From: an uncultured Flavobacteriales bacterium
Lineage (GTDB): Bacteria > Bacteroidota > Bacteroidia > Flavobacteriales_D > Crocinitomicaceae
DNA length: 34,483 nucleotides
Assembly (NCBI GenBank): GCA_903860985.1
Contig: CAIOSO010000122.1
Span: forward strand, 1-34,483
Direction: 5' to 3'
Shown: in pieces, positions 22,676 to 27,146 of the stretch
Numbering within the stretch: the first letter of the stretch is position 1
How the letters are laid out: each line of letters begins with the position of its first letter
The notes under the pieces: generated by a model
Database searches by the model: none
What the model was told of the DNA's origin: nothing
The model's input: only the letters and a program-made list of their open reading frames with translations
Position numbers and translations under genes: made by a program

Positions 22676-22715
22676 GCGGACAAGTATTTCATGCATATGA
22701 CATCTAAACTTCACT

Positions 22716-23285
22716 GTGTCTAAAGAAATTGATTTCAACGCGTTTCAAAGTGGAAACATTCAGGCTTTCGAGCAATTGGTCAATCGCTACGAAAAAAAAG
22801 TATTGAATACCTGCTGGTACATTCTGCAAAATCGGGAAGAAGCAGAAGATGCCACACAAGACATCTTTCTGGCCATCTATCAATCCAAACACTTATTTAA
22901 AGGACAATCGCAACTTTCCACTTGGATTCATCGCATTACGTTGAACAAATGCCTTGAATACATTCGAAAAGCCAAACGAAAAAAACGCTTTGGAATTAAA
23001 ATTCCCATTGACGATTCCTTTGTGATGATGGAAAAACACTCGCCATTAAACCCGGAAGAAGAATTGATGGAACGTGAGCGTTCTAACTTATTTGTTCAAG
23101 CCATTCAACATCTTTCCGAGAATCAACGCATTGCCTATTCTTTGCATCACTTCGAGGATTTGAGTTATAAAGAAATCAGCGAAAGCATGAGCCTATCCAT
23201 CTCTGCAGTTGAATCACTCATCTTTCGCGCCAAACAGCAATTAATAAAGCAATTAAAAGATCCTATTCAAAAAAATTGGATTTAA
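22716..23285 (+). CDS. ECF-type RNA polymerase sigma factor
   Basis: A 189-residue extracytoplasmic-function sigma factor with sigma region 2 (about 10-85: AFEQLVNRYEKKVLNTCWYIL, EEAEDATQDIFLAIYQ, STWIHRITLNKCLEYIRK) that binds the -10 element and core polymerase, and region 4 (about 125-180: LSENQRIAYSLHHFEDLSYKEIS, SAVESLIFRAKQQL), the helix-turn-helix for -35 recognition. No region 1.1 or 3. The start is GTG at 22716, since an in-frame TGA (22698-22700) lies just upstream. It begins a closely spaced series: a single-helix protein 48 bases downstream, then a metal-sensor-like protein, MbnP and MbnH. The order resembles sigma/anti-sigma/sensor modules of the CnrHYX type. Confidence 0.95.
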   Translation: MSKEIDFNAFQSGNIQAFEQLVNRYEKKVLNTCWYILQNREEAEDATQDIFLAIYQSKHLFKGQSQLSTWIHRITLNKCLEYIRKAKRKKRFGIKIPIDDSFVMMEKHSPLNPEEELMERERSNLFVQAIQHLSENQRIAYSLHHFEDLSYKEISESMSLSISAVESLIFRAKQQLIKQLKDPIQKNWI

Positions 23286-23333
23286 TCACAAGTTATACAA
23301 ATAGTTAACATCTAAGCCTTTAGAAGAACGCAT

Positions 23334-23570
23334 ATGAATAATAAACCATCAATACACTCCTTGGAAGTCAGCACTTCACTTCATGAAAAACTCTTGAAGA
23401 GTCCGGTTTACGCTCAAAAGATGAAAAACCGTTCGTTGACCATTAGCATCATTACAACTTTATTGATCCTTTTTAACTTATTTTATTTTATGTCTAACCA
23501 AGAAACTTTAGCCGAAGACCAAATTCTTGAGTCGCAATACGCTAATTTTGGTTCCGACCTTTCCATTTAA
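23334..23570 (+). CDS. Small single-pass membrane protein, candidate minimal anti-sigma factor
   Basis: A 78-residue protein with no family I can name by sequence. It has a polar, mildly basic N-terminal segment (1-33, with predicted helix EVSTSLHEKLLKSPVYAQKM), one hydrophobic helix (about 34-53, SLTISIITTLLILFNLFYFM) and an acidic tail (54-78). Positive charges before the helix predict the N terminus inside. This size and topology match CnrY-type anti-sigma factors, which hold the sigma factor with a short cytosolic segment, and the gene lies directly between an ECF sigma gene and a CnrX/ZraP-like sensor gene. The anti-sigma role is therefore inferred from position and topology, not homology. 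Coding status is supported by 48- and 10-base spacing to neighbours in a compact gene run. Confidence 0.7.
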   Translation: MNNKPSIHSLEVSTSLHEKLLKSPVYAQKMKNRSLTISIITTLLILFNLFYFMSNQETLAEDQILESQYANFGSDLSI

Positions 23571-23580
23571 TATTGAAGAA

Positions 23581-24018
23581 ATGAAAGCAAATCGCTTATT
23601 ACTAGTTTGCATTGGAATATTGATTTTGATCAATGGGTTTTTACTACTTGAATTGAACAAGCGAGGACAAGAAGGACCACCACACCCACCGAAATTGTAT
23701 TTAGCACTTGGCATGAAAGGTAAGGAAGCACAATGGGCAGACAATGAATTTAAACGTCACATTCGTGAAAAAGACCGGCTTTTGAACCAACAAAAATCAT
23801 GGAGAAGAAAGGTGAGTCTAGATCCAAATAAATCAGTCCAAAACCAACATATTTTTGCTGTTGTTAGCCGCATTCAATTTCAAATTGATTCTTGTACCTT
23901 CGATCACTTCATTCGGGTGAAAGAACATTGCACGAAAAAACAGAAAATCAAATTAAATTCCTTGGTTCGCCGCATGATTCAAAAAGCAGGTAACCCAGAT
24001 CCCAAAGGAAGACCATGA
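23581..24018 (+). CDS. Membrane-anchored periplasmic metal-sensor-like protein (CnrX/ZraP, Metal_resist family)
   Basis: A 145-residue protein with an N-terminal anchor helix (about 6-23) and a periplasmic helical domain. The C-terminal motif FDHFIRVKEHCTKKQKIKLNSLV (105-130 region) is the pattern of the heavy-metal-resistance/CpxP-ZraP-CnrX family as seen in Bacteroidota, and NEFKRHIREKDRLLNQQ (55-71) is the partner helix. Possible metal ligands are H60, C105, H109, H116 and C117, but the exact site cannot be assigned. The frame extends upstream to a TTG at 23527, but ATG 23581 places the anchor at the N terminus and does not overlap the previous gene. Its stop overlaps the MbnP start by 4 bases. 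By analogy with CnrX it would signal through the 78-residue protein to the sigma factor. Confidence 0.78.
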   Translation: MKANRLLLVCIGILILINGFLLLELNKRGQEGPPHPPKLYLALGMKGKEAQWADNEFKRHIREKDRLLNQQKSWRRKVSLDPNKSVQNQHIFAVVSRIQFQIDSCTFDHFIRVKEHCTKKQKIKLNSLVRRMIQKAGNPDPKGRP

Positions 24019-24665
24019 AGCAACTTGTCACATTCATTGTATTCATCGTGCTTTTCCACCAAGCTCACACGCAATTGAATGTGTCCCTTCGTTGGGGAAC
24101 TGAACCAATTAGGTTAGAAAAATACTATTTCCTCGGCAAGGACAGTTTGATGTTTCACGAATTGAAACTCTATCTTTCAGACTTTCAATTTGAAAAAGAA
24201 ACGAGAAAACAGGTGCTCGTTGGACCACATTTTATTGATCTTGAGGATCCCAGTTCTCTCCGCTTATTTCCCGATTTTCTTGTAGCAGAATACCAATCGC
24301 TCCGTTTCCATTTTGGACTCGATAGTTCCTATCACGTGTCTGAAAGTGTCGATGGGCCCTTGAACCCCATGAATGGCATGTACTGGGCATGGAATTCTGG
24401 TTACATTCAATTCAAATGCACGGGAACCTCATCGTCGATTTCTTTAACTGACCAAACCTTTGAATACCATTTAGGTGGATATCGTCAGCCATTTAAAACG
24501 ATTGAATCCATTCATCTAGCAATCAAGGGGAACACACTCATTTTGGACATCAAACCATTTTTTGAGCAGACAGTCGATTTTCAAGAGGTGAAACATGTCA
24601 TGATTCCAGGGAAACTAGCCCAAACCTATTGCCGAGAACTTTCTAAATTATTTCGCTCCGAATGA
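24015..24665 (+). CDS. MbnP-family periplasmic/surface protein (predicted copper-binding)
   Basis: A 216-residue exported protein (signal peptide about 1-19, cut near AHT-Q) with the MbnP-like domain. Recognisable family features are ELKLYLSDFQF (49-59), LRFHFGLDS (96-104), the signature PMNGMYWAWNSGYIQFK (118-134) with W124 and W126, and FEYHLGGY (149-156). In methanotrophs the homologous MbnP/CorA/MopE proteins bind copper with a kynurenine made from a tryptophan by the partner di-heme enzyme MbnH. Which Trp would be modified here cannot be told from this sequence alone. It overlaps both neighbours by 4 bases, and the next gene is an MbnH-type protein, so the pair is intact. No methanobactin-like peptide gene was seen nearby. 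Confidence 0.85.
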   Translation: MKQLVTFIVFIVLFHQAHTQLNVSLRWGTEPIRLEKYYFLGKDSLMFHELKLYLSDFQFEKETRKQVLVGPHFIDLEDPSSLRLFPDFLVAEYQSLRFHFGLDSSYHVSESVDGPLNPMNGMYWAWNSGYIQFKCTGTSSSISLTDQTFEYHLGGYRQPFKTIESIHLAIKGNTLILDIKPFFEQTVDFQEVKHVMIPGKLAQTYCRELSKLFRSE

Positions 24666-25705
24666 AACCGTTTTTGATCATTTTAGGGGCTGTTGTAACT
24701 TGTTTGATTTTCCTTGCTGGAATTCAAGAGGAAACTCCTTTTTATATTCCCGCCAAATGGCCAAAACCACACTACGACTTCACACAAAATCCACTTTCGA
24801 AAGAAAAATTCGAATTGGGACGCACCTTGTTTTACGATCCTGATCTTTCTAGAGACAGTACCATTTCATGTGCGAATTGTCACCTTCAATATTCCGGATT
24901 TACACACATTGATCACTCACTAAGTCATGGCATTGATGGCAAAATCGGAACACGAAATGCTCCTGTACTGATTAATTTGGCTTGGCAGCAATTTTTTCAC
25001 TGGGATGGCGGGGTCAGTTCTTTAAATAAACAAGCCATCAATCCACTCACGCATGCGAAGGAGATGGACAATCGACTAGACGAAGTTCTTCGAAGATTAA
25101 ATCAGTCGTCGTTTTATCGAAATCGTTTTTACCAAGCATTTGGTGACAGTGTCATTCAAACAGCATCCATGTTAAAGGCACTTGCTAGCTTTACGGTATC
25201 CCTCGTTTCAGCGAATTCAACATATGACCAGGTAAAACGAGGTGAGTCCAGCTTTACCAATCAGGAGGAATCAGGATACCAACTGTTTAAAAAGTACTGT
25301 GCTTCCTGTCATCAAGAACCTTTGTTCATGAAGAATGAATTTAAATCCAACGGGATTGCGCTAGTCCCTGCACTCAATGACTACGGACGAATGGACATCA
25401 CCAACCGAAAGGAAGATTCGCTCTTGTTTAAAATTCCTACACTCCGTAATGTGGAGTTTAGTTTCCCCTACATGCACGATGGACGATATAAACAACTGAA
25501 GGATGTCCTGAATCACTATGGGAATCTGCATGGAAATCGAACGTTTTACAGCAAAGAATTGAAAAAATTAAACCGACTCCTCACTTCCAATGAGCAAAAG
25601 GATCTCATTGCCTTCTTAAAAACCTTGAGCGACCAAGAATTTCTCTTCAATCCACAATTTAAATACCCGAAAAATGAGCGAAATGCAAGTTTTCAAAAGA
25701 ATTAA
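24662..25705 (+). CDS. Di-heme cytochrome c peroxidase family protein (MbnH-like)
   Basis: A 347-residue protein with an N-terminal signal/anchor helix (about 3-20) and two c-type heme motifs, C70-A-N-C73-H74 and C213-A-S-C216-H217, spaced as in bacterial cytochrome c peroxidases and MauG/MbnH. Other family features are FELGRTLFYDPDLS, GTRNAPVLINLAWQQFFHWDGG, and IPTLRNVEFSFPYMHDGRY near 258-276. It overlaps the MbnP gene by 4 bases. In characterised MbnP/MbnH pairs the di-heme enzyme oxidises a Trp of MbnP to kynurenine; in stand-alone cases the family reduces H2O2. The adjacency favours the first role. Both hemes require the periplasmic cytochrome c maturation system, which is not encoded in this window. 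Confidence 0.88.
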   Translation: MKPFLIILGAVVTCLIFLAGIQEETPFYIPAKWPKPHYDFTQNPLSKEKFELGRTLFYDPDLSRDSTISCANCHLQYSGFTHIDHSLSHGIDGKIGTRNAPVLINLAWQQFFHWDGGVSSLNKQAINPLTHAKEMDNRLDEVLRRLNQSSFYRNRFYQAFGDSVIQTASMLKALASFTVSLVSANSTYDQVKRGESSFTNQEESGYQLFKKYCASCHQEPLFMKNEFKSNGIALVPALNDYGRMDITNRKEDSLLFKIPTLRNVEFSFPYMHDGRYKQLKDVLNHYGNLHGNRTFYSKELKKLNRLLTSNEQKDLIAFLKTLSDQEFLFNPQFKYPKNERNASFQKN

Positions 25706-25733
25706 CATCTAAATTTATTCAAACAGAAAAATT

Positions 25734-27092
25734 ATGAAAAAATTAAACCTTTTATTATTGCTTATCGTTTGCGGTCAGCAGGCAATGGCACAGTTAAATC
25801 CAGCAATTGAACACTGGCTCATCAATACAACAGGAATCACCGGAAGACACTATGTCCAAGGGAATTCCACGCCGATCAATGAAACAACATTGGCGAATGT
25901 TCAAACGGTTCAGTACTCAAACAATTGGGTTTATGTGACAACAACAGGCGTTCCTTCGTACATCACAGGTCCATTTATGGATGGAAATCCATCCTTGGCA
26001 ACGAGTCAAAATGCAATTTTCAAAATGCCACTTAATCCTACCCAAAATACAGGAACCTTAACAAACACGACGGGTGGAAATATTGGAATTTTCATCAATG
26101 GTGTTGCCTTATTTGACTACCGTGACGGTGTGGCTTGGAATTCAAACTCGAATTCGTTATGCGGTGGATTACCTGGAATGTCTCCTTGTCCGGGAGGGCC
26201 CGGTGCTGCCATGTCTTGGAATCGCGACGCCATTCCAGCGGAAAAAGCAGGTTTCGATTGTTCCAAAGGACATCCAGCGATGGGAAATTACCACCACCAC
26301 CAAAATCCAAGTGCATTCAAATTAGACCTTACCCTTATTTCGAATGTGTGTGATTTATACGACGCGGATGGACTTTATGTGATTGACTCAACAGTACATT
26401 CGCCATTAATTGGCTATGCGTATGATGGTTTTCCCATTTATGGCGCCTATGGATATAAAAACACTGATGGGACTGGTGGAATCACACGTATGAAATCCAG
26501 TTACCAATTGAGAAACATCACTGCAAGAACGATTTGGGCTGATGGAACAGACGTGCCAGATGGACCAACGGTTAGCACCACTTATCCACTTGGATATTTC
26601 CGTGAAGACTATGAATTTATCAATCATTCTCAGTCTGATTATTTGGATAGTCATAACGGACGTTTTTGCATCACGCCCGAGTATCCAAATGGAATCTATT
26701 GTTATTTTGCAACCGTGAATGAACAATGGAATTCAGCATACCCATACGTAGTTGGACCAACGTTTTACGGCATGAAAACAGCTTCAAAAGTGACTACTAT
26801 ATCCGAGACTGTCACTACCTATACTTCGAATGTAGGAATTAATGAGTTGAAAGAAAACGACTGGTCCGTTTACCCAAATCCAAGTAACGACATCATCATG
26901 GTGCAAGTAAATGATTTGACAAACCAGTCTTACACTGTTGAGTTATTTGATGCATTAGGAAAACTCATTCAATCCAAACAAATTATTCAAGGAAGTACAA
27001 TTGCCTATTTACAAGTTGACACCCTTTACAAAGGAATCTATCAGGTTAAAATTAGCGGTCAAACAGGCACAAAGAAATTAGTTATTGAATAA
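25734..27092 (+). CDS. YHYH-domain secreted protein with T9SS sorting tail
   Basis: A 452-residue exported protein. Signal peptide about 1-20 (ending AMA-Q). The central region (about 95-355) is a YHYH domain: INGVALFDYRDGVAW, then MGNYHHHQNPSAF (here YHHH instead of YHYH), and LIGYAYDGFPIYGAYGY, features that define the family. The His-rich motif suggests metal binding, but no function is established. The C-terminal 80 residues form a T9SS tail (INELKENDWSVYPNPSND ... ELFDALGKLIQ ... GIYQVKI), so it is exported to the surface by the SprA system. It follows the MbnH gene by 28 bases with no terminator between, so it is probably the last gene of the sigma/MbnPH operon. A terminator follows. 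Confidence 0.87.
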   Translation: MKKLNLLLLLIVCGQQAMAQLNPAIEHWLINTTGITGRHYVQGNSTPINETTLANVQTVQYSNNWVYVTTTGVPSYITGPFMDGNPSLATSQNAIFKMPLNPTQNTGTLTNTTGGNIGIFINGVALFDYRDGVAWNSNSNSLCGGLPGMSPCPGGPGAAMSWNRDAIPAEKAGFDCSKGHPAMGNYHHHQNPSAFKLDLTLISNVCDLYDADGLYVIDSTVHSPLIGYAYDGFPIYGAYGYKNTDGTGGITRMKSSYQLRNITARTIWADGTDVPDGPTVSTTYPLGYFREDYEFINHSQSDYLDSHNGRFCITPEYPNGIYCYFATVNEQWNSAYPYVVGPTFYGMKTASKVTTISETVTTYTSNVGINELKENDWSVYPNPSNDIIMVQVNDLTNQSYTVELFDALGKLIQSKQIIQGSTIAYLQVDTLYKGIYQVKISGQTGTKKLVIE

Positions 27093-27116
27093 TCGAGTAA
27101 ACTAGGAACAAAAAAG

Positions 27117-27146
27117 AAAGGCACATGATTCCCATGTGCCTTTTTT
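27117..27146 (+). terminator. Rho-independent terminator after the YHYH gene
   Basis: A perfect 11-bp stem AAAGGCACATG (27117-27127) / CATGTGCCTTT (27133-27143) with loop ATTCC and a T-run to 27146. It lies 24 bases after the stop codon and closes the sigma-MbnPH-YHYH run. Confidence 0.92.

Follow-up and report, generated by a model that had tools for sequence, protein, structure and literature searches.

A recurrent, probably self-regulated six-gene unit joins an ECF sigma factor and a predicted CnrX-fold sensor to MbnP, MbnH and a YHYH protein in Bacteroidota

Results

A Six-Gene Locus with Three Copies of a Two-Box Motif

The subject of this study is a six-gene unit in a stretch of DNA of 34,483 nucleotides (herein referred to as the window) from an uncultured Flavobacteriales bacterium (assembly GCA_903860985.1; the window is contig CAIOSO010000122.1, herein C122, of a 2.44 Mb genome in 191 contigs), whose closest named relatives, among the matches listed in a YHYH alignment scan of named genomes, are Crocinitomicaceae and Flavobacteriales metagenome-assembled genomes. 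A first-pass annotation of the DNA letters had placed six open reading frames (ORFs) here, on the plus strand and in a fixed order, and that layout holds. The unit begins with an extracytoplasmic function (ECF) sigma factor of 189 amino acids with a GTG start (22716..23285; Sigma70_r2 55.1 bits and r4_2 60 bits, both above the Pfam cut-off), followed by an anti-sigma-like protein of 78 amino acids with a single transmembrane (TM) segment (23334..23570), so named from its position and architecture, and by a membrane-anchored protein of 145 amino acids (23581..24018) for which a CnrX/Spy fold is predicted and whose start is an ATG internal to an ORF listed from 23527. These three genes (herein the trio) lead into an MbnP family protein of 216 amino acids (24015..24665), an MbnH-like di-heme CCP/MauG enzyme of 347 amino acids (24662..25705) and a YHYH-domain protein of 452 amino acids with a type IX secretion system (T9SS) type A sorting tail (25734..27092). 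The sensor and MbnP genes overlap by four bases (24015-24018), as do the MbnP and MbnH genes (24662-24665), and the unit ends at a terminator-like hairpin with a T tract (27114..27146, plus strand, listed for the minus strand too; z -4.5); the overlaps and the single terminator had both been correctly described.

The first-pass annotation was silent on a two-box motif, which was first spotted by reading upstream regions. The window contains three copies of the pattern CAAG-N{14,18}-CATCTAA, always with a 16-nt spacer, where 0.06 copies are expected and none of 100 shuffles reaches three. The copies, all on the plus strand, stand 5' of the sigma gene (P1, 22681..22707), of the small-protein gene (P2, 23289..23315) and of the YHYH gene (P3, 25686..25712, beginning within the 3' end of mbnH), so that the unit has one terminator yet at least three promoter-like sites. 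P1 is the predicted promoter of the operon's own sigma factor; its -10 box (22701-22716 region) stops 8 nt 5' of the GTG, as in the similar layouts of loci L053, L062 and L068, and the sigma mRNA may therefore be nearly leaderless. On its own ACATCTAA occurs 4 times in the window where 1.42 copies are expected, only a mild enrichment, and its reading as a general translation signal was ruled out by the rarity of the two-box form. When up to three mismatches are allowed, the count of 35 does not stand out from the 31 that chance predicts, as is expected of so loose a pattern.

Conservation of the Gene Order across Genera, Families and Chromosomal Contexts

A CnrX-like protein is present in 24 of 80 related genomes, and 20 regions around such matches, one per genome, share a recurring order of sigma factor, small protein, sensor, MbnP, MbnH and then, where present, YHYH. 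Close relatives share synteny from sprA through to the glycyl-tRNA synthetase gene; in L039, L040 and L042 the unit lies away from the sprA-GNAT context. We also scored, with six profiles, a YHYH-anchored set made up of the best 80 of 406 confirmed loci in named genomes, a choice that biases the set to close YHYH relatives. Fifty-six of these loci have at least 4.5 kb upstream, and 32 of them carry the trio, MbnP, MbnH and YHYH (three, L078, L106 and L109, with extra genes 5' of YHYH); Another 16 have MbnP-MbnH-YHYH in a same-strand run that lacks the trio, one has MbnH only and seven have neither. One carrier of the operon is an isolate, Flavobacterium sedimenticola YZ-48 (L115). The 24 loci with less than 4.5 kb upstream divide into four with trio and pair (in one of these four, L093, the trio comes after YHYH), four with sensor and pair, six with the pair, two with MbnH only and eight with none. 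Because the six-gene order is kept across genera, families and contexts, it is not a product of chance.

Some loci have additional genes. In L046 and L047 a second MbnH-like gene and a weak MbnP-like match (11-15 bits) lie directly 5' of the sigma gene, so that two pairs may flank the trio. Members of a rhodopsin-like cluster are found inside the unit, between mbnH and YHYH, in L066, L078 and L087 (that of L087 being a Bac_rhodopsin protein, 152 bits), and before YHYH at a contig start in L074. Another cluster occupies the position between MbnH and YHYH in L109 (5738-7999), L069 and L106; its L109 member is a CotH-kinase protein with an LTD domain and a T9SS tail.

The Trio Is a General Module with Several Outputs

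To place the unit on a wider background we used an even sample of 198 genomes of the Bacteroidota phylum. MbnP (PF20243) occurs in 50 of them (68 matches), and 64 regions were fetched that span the 67 matches besides that of the window. MbnP was scored in 63 regions (the exception, L207, is at a contig start) and is followed by MbnH in 62 of these, all but L206, with the trio upstream of MbnP at only four loci of the sample: L172, L173, L204 and the window. YHYH (PF14240) occurs in 22 genomes (26 matches) and by coordinates adjoins MbnP in five (G000, which is the genome of the window, G056, G091, G106 and G190). A broad sensor profile built on 28 rows (A4) matches in 95 of the 198 genomes, although weak matches need not be full trios. 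Its four best matches are the four MbnP-linked sensors. In all of the next 26 loci the sensor is preceded by a sigma factor and a small protein with a TM segment, and is followed by other genes. Five of these cargo genes were identified, one representative each: MscS, Lcl_C, CBM9, CCP_MauG without MbnP in view and YHYH without MbnP in view. The claim that sigma factor, anti-sigma-like protein and CnrX-fold sensor form one module is supported; the trio is a general module, and the six-gene operon is one of its outputs.

The proposed co-occurrence of all six families stands for the six-gene order itself and not for the trio family as a whole, which mostly neighbours other genes. Rare neighbourhood with MbnP/MbnH had been named beforehand as an outcome that would count against the proposed regulon, and it is what the whole family displays; yet in a tree of 28 MbnPH-linked sigma factors (that of the window, 24 picked from among the 80 YHYH-anchored loci and three from the phylum sample) and 21 others, with five of the 26 other-cargo loci left out as their sigma genes are only partial, the linkage label changes 4 times where shuffling gives a mean of 16.1, a strong clustering.

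Two of the other-cargo loci touch the output genes. At L227 (237-1448) the trio is directly followed by a CCP/MauG enzyme, with no MbnP within the fetched stretch. At L237 (2044-3442) it is followed by two YHYH-like genes, the first a PF14240 match of 51 bits and the second judged by eye, with no MbnP or MbnH within the fetched stretch, a layout which suggests that YHYH is a core output. The window's genome also holds a second MbnP-MbnH pair in another context and without the trio (G000:C67:1-1574; L002, L208).

Promoter-Like Sites Recur before the Same Three Genes

A strict form of the motif, GCAAG-N16-CRTCTAA, was scanned in eight genomes and gave eight matches, of which five belong to this operon, each in a different genome, and three lie outside it, one of the latter before a TonB receptor in G015 (L137). 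Six matches to a looser form, CAAG-N15-17-CATCTAA, lie outside the operon in the window's genome, five of them inside ORFs; one of these five, on contig C115, has a 15-nt spacer and sits at the end of its ORF right before the next gene. The sixth, about 110 bp 5' of a TonB-receptor-like gene (G000:C69:4000-4026; L129), is kept in G002 and lost in G036 and G015, that is, kept in one of three close orthologues, and it was not counted as a regulon member for this reason.

We also used a matrix whose starting point was the three sites of the window; its refinement drew solely on upstream regions of YHYH genes, a set to which the window does not belong, and a site was called significant above the 95% line of shuffles. 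On the training set itself 37 of 49 YHYH upstreams exceed this line. Among the upstreams held apart, 23 of 48 for the sigma gene and 30 of 47 for the small-protein gene do so, with about 2.4 expected in each case, and the coupled genes hardly score at all (sensor 3/52, MbnP 0/52, MbnH 3/53). These sequences are related and not independent (identical upstreams were removed, near copies remain), and a simple start-codon caller may hide some sigma-gene sites (L048, L049). A joint matrix has the same spacing in 57 of its 60 best sites. The earlier suggestion of self-regulation is supported in so far as the motif precedes the genes for sigma factor, small protein and YHYH both in the window and across loci.

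Outside complete units, significant sites (p<=0.05) precede YHYH at 19 of 37 loci without a scored sensor in the run (about 1.9 expected), although in some cases the sequence stops short of where a trio might appear, and at L104 a sigma gene lies upstream; YHYH may thus be driven in trans there. MbnP has such sites at 1 of 18 sensor-less loci and at 2 of 60 non-trio loci of the phylum sample. Among the 26 trios with other cargo, 11 have the site before the sigma gene (five genera, one of which contributes six of these loci) and 3 have it downstream of the sensor gene.

A Predicted CnrX-Fold Sensor and a Small Protein Share a Membrane Asparagine

The window's sensor has no Pfam or NCBIfam match at E<=1. 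Metal_resist is found in 8 of 28 relatives at E<=0.01 (best 5.4e-9), and the AF2 model (AlphaFold2; mean predicted local distance difference test score, pLDDT, 85.8) consists of a TM helix and three long helices; the label Metal_resist/CnrX-like, first given to the protein itself, thus holds by way of its relatives and the modelled fold. In Foldseek, ranks 1-13 for the model are all CnrX entries (probability 0.92-1.00, E 0.15-0.78), and VIA gives CnrX a Z score of 10.8 (root-mean-square deviation 2.6, 100 residues), so that a CnrX fold with an N-terminal TM helix is predicted, with the caution due to helical bundles. Searched against PDB sequences, the broad sensor profile retrieves Spy (E 0.0027), a VirG-like STV entry (0.0035) and NccX (0.0079), with CnrX at 1.2. 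Conservation is highest at His60 and Phe110 (28/28 each) and Cys117 (27/28), and position 109 is His in 21 of 28 and Tyr in seven.

The small proteins have a TM segment in 35 of 35 cases and a second in none, and the N-terminal tail follows a family pattern V-S-x-x-L-x-x-K-L. The distribution of positive charge lends modest support to a cytoplasmic N-terminus (N side more positive in 25 of 43, equal in seven). The small-protein profile against PDB, and family members against NCBIfam, returned chance-looking matches only. One column of the TM segment is Asn in 37 of 43 small proteins (Asn48 in the window), and one column of the sensor TM segment is Asn in 43 of 45 (Asn18), the remaining two rows starting past that stretch. 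Trios with other cargo have Asn within the TM 19-mer of both partners, 26 of 26 each. An Asn occurs in 5 of 22 other small single-TM proteins, a cleaned control (an earlier one, 27 of 37 small internal-TM ORFs, contained small proteins of the same family), in 87 of 321 other single N-terminal hydrophobic segments and in 146 of 505 TM segments generally, a count that still includes the two families. Aligned NccX lacks the TM Asn. A polar Asn is able to drive the pairing of TM helices. The three-copy promoter-like motif and the paired TM asparagines are new here; among the titles and abstracts listed for the open-licence literature, with subscription papers outside the scope, none deals with the six-gene unit or with the Asn pair.

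The Output Genes

MbnP scores 108.7 bits to PF20243 (cut-off 27) and 29.3 bits, below the cut-off of 140, to the NCBIfam equivalog TIGR04052 (MbnP_like_WxW), and has no PDB relative at E<=1. W124-x-W126, Met122 and His152 are kept in all 41 proteins from the window and 40 sensor-linked loci. The MbnH-like enzyme likewise matches its Pfam family (CCP_MauG, 177.9 bits) and falls below the equivalog cut-off (TIGR04039, 205.5 bits against 362.85); its heme motifs CANCH 70 and CASCH 213 have CxxCH Cys and His at least 97% conserved across the same loci, with Tyr286 in 41 of 41 and Trp114 in 40 of 41. Tyr286 aligns with a Met of PDB 1iqc which we take to be an axial heme ligand, Tyr at this position presumably marking MauG and MbnH, and residues 28-337 align with PDB 6e1c, entitled 'Di-heme enzyme', which we take to be MbnH of M. 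trichosporium. MbnH oxidises a Trp of MbnP. That these genes encode such partners, as first proposed, agrees with their residues, which are those expected of a Trp-modifying pair.

The YHYH protein is well supported as a domain assignment (PF14240 203.1 bits, cut-off 25; Por_Secre_tail 50.4 bits, cut-off 27). The AF2 model has a mean pLDDT of 36, and the three matches of the YHYH profile to PDB at E<=0.01 all fall in the T9SS tail. On the basis of conserved His and Asp, YHYH of phages has been suggested to act as a metal-dependent hydrolase (PMC7824862).

Of the 63 MbnP regions scored in the phylum sample, 21 have a gene for a small Cys-rich protein near the pair, 20 one for a CDVCGC outer-membrane-like protein, 10 a TonB-receptor gene from a single cluster and three a SCO1-like gene (one of these three tested). 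The one TonB-cluster member tested has a TonB-copper model as its best match (167 bits, below the cut-off of 472). Representatives of the small (CNGKCH) and outer-membrane-like (CDVCGC) families, e.g., at L164 and L152, have no Pfam or NCBIfam match.

Discussion

Relation to Known Systems

The trio most resembles two systems. In Phocaeicola vulgatus, CirY/CirZ and Spy, encoded by M0N98_01574-01576, share the order of ECF sigma factor, anti-sigma factor and co-transcribed Spy-fold gene. Here lies the nearest experimental parallel: without the anti-sigma gene cirZ, transcripts of cirY and of the Spy gene in its operon rise, as do those of two genes further downstream that are not transcriptionally linked; the same genome has another sigma/anti-sigma pair with a second Spy gene downstream (PMC13114119). 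That system differs in that its description treats it as an envelope-stress response with Spy read as a chaperone (PMC13114119); the likeness drawn here is one of gene order and of the kinds of protein. In Cupriavidus metallidurans, CnrYXH and NccX offer the same anatomy of short TM anti-sigma factor, membrane-anchored helical sensor and ECF sigma factor (PMC7689651, PMC7406223), and the window's sensor model fits CnrX best, with a weak profile match to NccX. By its name CnrYXH has the sigma factor last, whereas here it comes first; the output here is not a resistance-nodulation-division efflux pump, and NccX has no Asn of the kind seen in the membrane segments here. The likeness to CnrHYX that had been proposed holds for predicted fold and architecture and fails for the closest relatives of the sigma factor and for Met123; the small protein shows no sequence match to CnrY. 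As proposed here the switch works like CnrYXH, and we do not claim membership, since the sigma factor is not CnrH-like and Met123 is missing. In the Bacteroidota phylum, class I anti-sigma factors are rare, at 6% of ECFs (PMC7406223).

On the side of the output, the Methylosinus genes mbnI/mbnR place MbnP-MbnH pairs near an ECF sigma factor with a membrane anti-sigma-type partner, but of FecI/FecR type and with a TonB receptor (MbnT-like) as sensor in place of the CnrX-fold sensor and single-TM anti-sigma protein found here without a TonB receptor (PMC3621798). CorA-CorB and MopE-SACCP of methanotrophs also pair a copper-site protein, whose kynurenine derives from tryptophan, with a co-transcribed di-heme protein of the CCP family; CorA and CorB are produced when copper is low, the Cu(I) site of CorA includes kynurenine, and a function in copper acquisition is proposed by the authors (PMC3912023). 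CorA and MopE were compared with the window's MbnP through the PDB search only, which found no relative. PG0214/PG0215 of Porphyromonas gingivalis were considered as a precedent and dropped, as PG0216 is listed as a DUF4252 protein (PMC10101095).

A Proposed Autoregulated Switch

The unit is a real, recurrent and probably self-regulated operon. We hypothesize, with somewhat better than even confidence, that an autoregulated sigma/anti-sigma/sensor switch drives MbnP-MbnH and YHYH in response to a signal that is most likely a metal and probably copper. At rest, the cytoplasmic tail of the 78-residue protein would keep the ECF sigma factor at the inner membrane, while its TM helix would pair with that of the sensor, probably via the Asn in each. 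A periplasmic signal would alter the sensor and loosen the grip on the sigma factor, and the freed factor would read promoters of the form GCAAG(TTTT)-N16-CRTCTAA. Acting on its own gene it would provide positive feedback; acting on the anti-sigma/sensor/mbnP/mbnH unit it would provide negative feedback together with output, and it would also drive YHYH. MbnH would then oxidise W124 or W126 of MbnP, giving rise to a metal site, and the YHYH protein would exit via the type IX system. Given the CnrYXH-like anatomy and a promoter of its own at three places, the signal would raise sigma factor, brake, sensor, MbnP-MbnH and YHYH together. The computations establish the order of the genes, their domains, the class of fold, the promoter-like motif with its distribution, the conserved residues and the Asn columns; we infer the binding events, the signal, with copper as the metal, and the Trp chemistry in these organisms. 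For this branch we favour metal, and copper in particular, on account of the output genes. More tentatively, the trio may represent a distinct class of Bacteroidota sigma switch, in which anti-sigma protein and sensor are locked by one TM Asn each, the promoter is GCAAG-N16-CRTCTAA and the outputs are interchangeable, here an MbnP/MbnH copper-protein workshop and a secreted YHYH protein.

Several observations weigh against this proposal. As to the sensor, the Foldseek E-values for CnrX (ranks 1-13 and 15) run from 0.15 to 0.93, and the Z score lies below the value of about 13 advised for helical bundles and only 1-2 above unrelated helical proteins, which reach about 9. CnrX signalling needs Met123 (PMC7689651), and no Met is found at the matching column, 113, which is Ile in 22, Val in four and Leu in two of 28 rows; the register comes only from the ends of the aligned ranges (109-113 ~ 119-123), and the sole Met within columns 111-115 is at 111 in one row. 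The sigma factor is nearer to RpoE/SigW-type sigma factors (79 bits) than to CnrH (32.7 bits) in PDB profile matches, with the CnrH chain 4cxf 15th of 22, and the CnrY chain is not retrieved by the small-protein profile (A2) at E<=10, even though the architecture fits in 35 of 35. As to the promoter, the reversed control of the strict motif is equally common in the eight genomes (8 vs 8), the looser form has 9 matches against 6 for the reversed pattern in the window's genome, and the operon has no strict match in G005, G030 and G048; the motif is therefore not enriched genome-wide, and its placement in the operon is what is special. Fifteen of the 26 other trios, some of them cut, have no significant site before the sigma gene; of the 26 loci, four or five are cut within that gene. 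Finally, the 26 trios with other cargo argue that the module is not tied to metal, and MbnP and MbnH were called mysterious partners in a report that knew of no data then linking close MbnP homologues to copper (PMC3621798).

Alternative Explanations

A serious rival, which we judge quite possible though short of even, is that the trio is a general envelope-stress switch (Spy-type, for protein-folding or oxidative stress) and no metal sensor, the sensor being a chaperone-like, titrated brake in the manner of CpxP/Spy and MbnP-MbnH with YHYH one of many outputs brought under its control by different Bacteroidota. The diverse cargo of related trios (MscS, Lcl_C, CBM9, CCP_MauG or YHYH) fits such a switch, as does the lead of Spy, ahead of the VirG-like STV entry and NccX, among the PDB matches of the broad family, and the conserved sensor ligands differ from those of CnrX. 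In colitis cirY, cirZ and spy are induced 143-, 132- and 155-fold, and the passages on this induction report no metal link (PMC13114119). In the structural ranking of the modelled sensor, however, CnrX stands above Spy and CpxP; invariant His60 and near-invariant Cys117 would suit a metal or redox site; and the clustering of MbnPH-linked sigma factors means that their sensors may have a ligand of their own.

An unlikely alternative keeps copper and reverses the logic: the apo sensor would free the sigma factor, MbnP would scavenge copper like MopE/CorA, and metal would shut the regulon off, opposite to CnrYXH. The low-copper production of CorA/CorB and the acquisition proposed for them (PMC3912023) speak for starvation control, as do the TonB-cluster and SCO1-like genes near MbnP regions, but CnrX activates upon metal binding (PMC7689651), the six-gene unit contains no TonB receptor and the motif before the C69 TonB-receptor gene is poorly kept. 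That the genes are no regulon, merely co-inherited neighbours of the sprA-GNAT region with a small protein and sensor unrelated to the sigma factor, would account for the synteny in close relatives, and is already refuted by relocated copies (L039, L040, L042, L172, L173, L204) and further opposed by the motif common to the unit's genes and by related trios with unrelated cargo, which makes it very improbable.

Implications

If the more tentative reading of a distinct switch class holds, the unit would be a copper regulon controlled by a type of switch that is not known to have such a role. The role of the MbnPH pair, which is widespread, is unclear outside methanotrophs; with a regulator that recurs, precisely placed promoter-like sites and YHYH as a third partner, the question becomes testable, and the promoter together with the paired intramembrane asparagines provides handles on how the switch signals.

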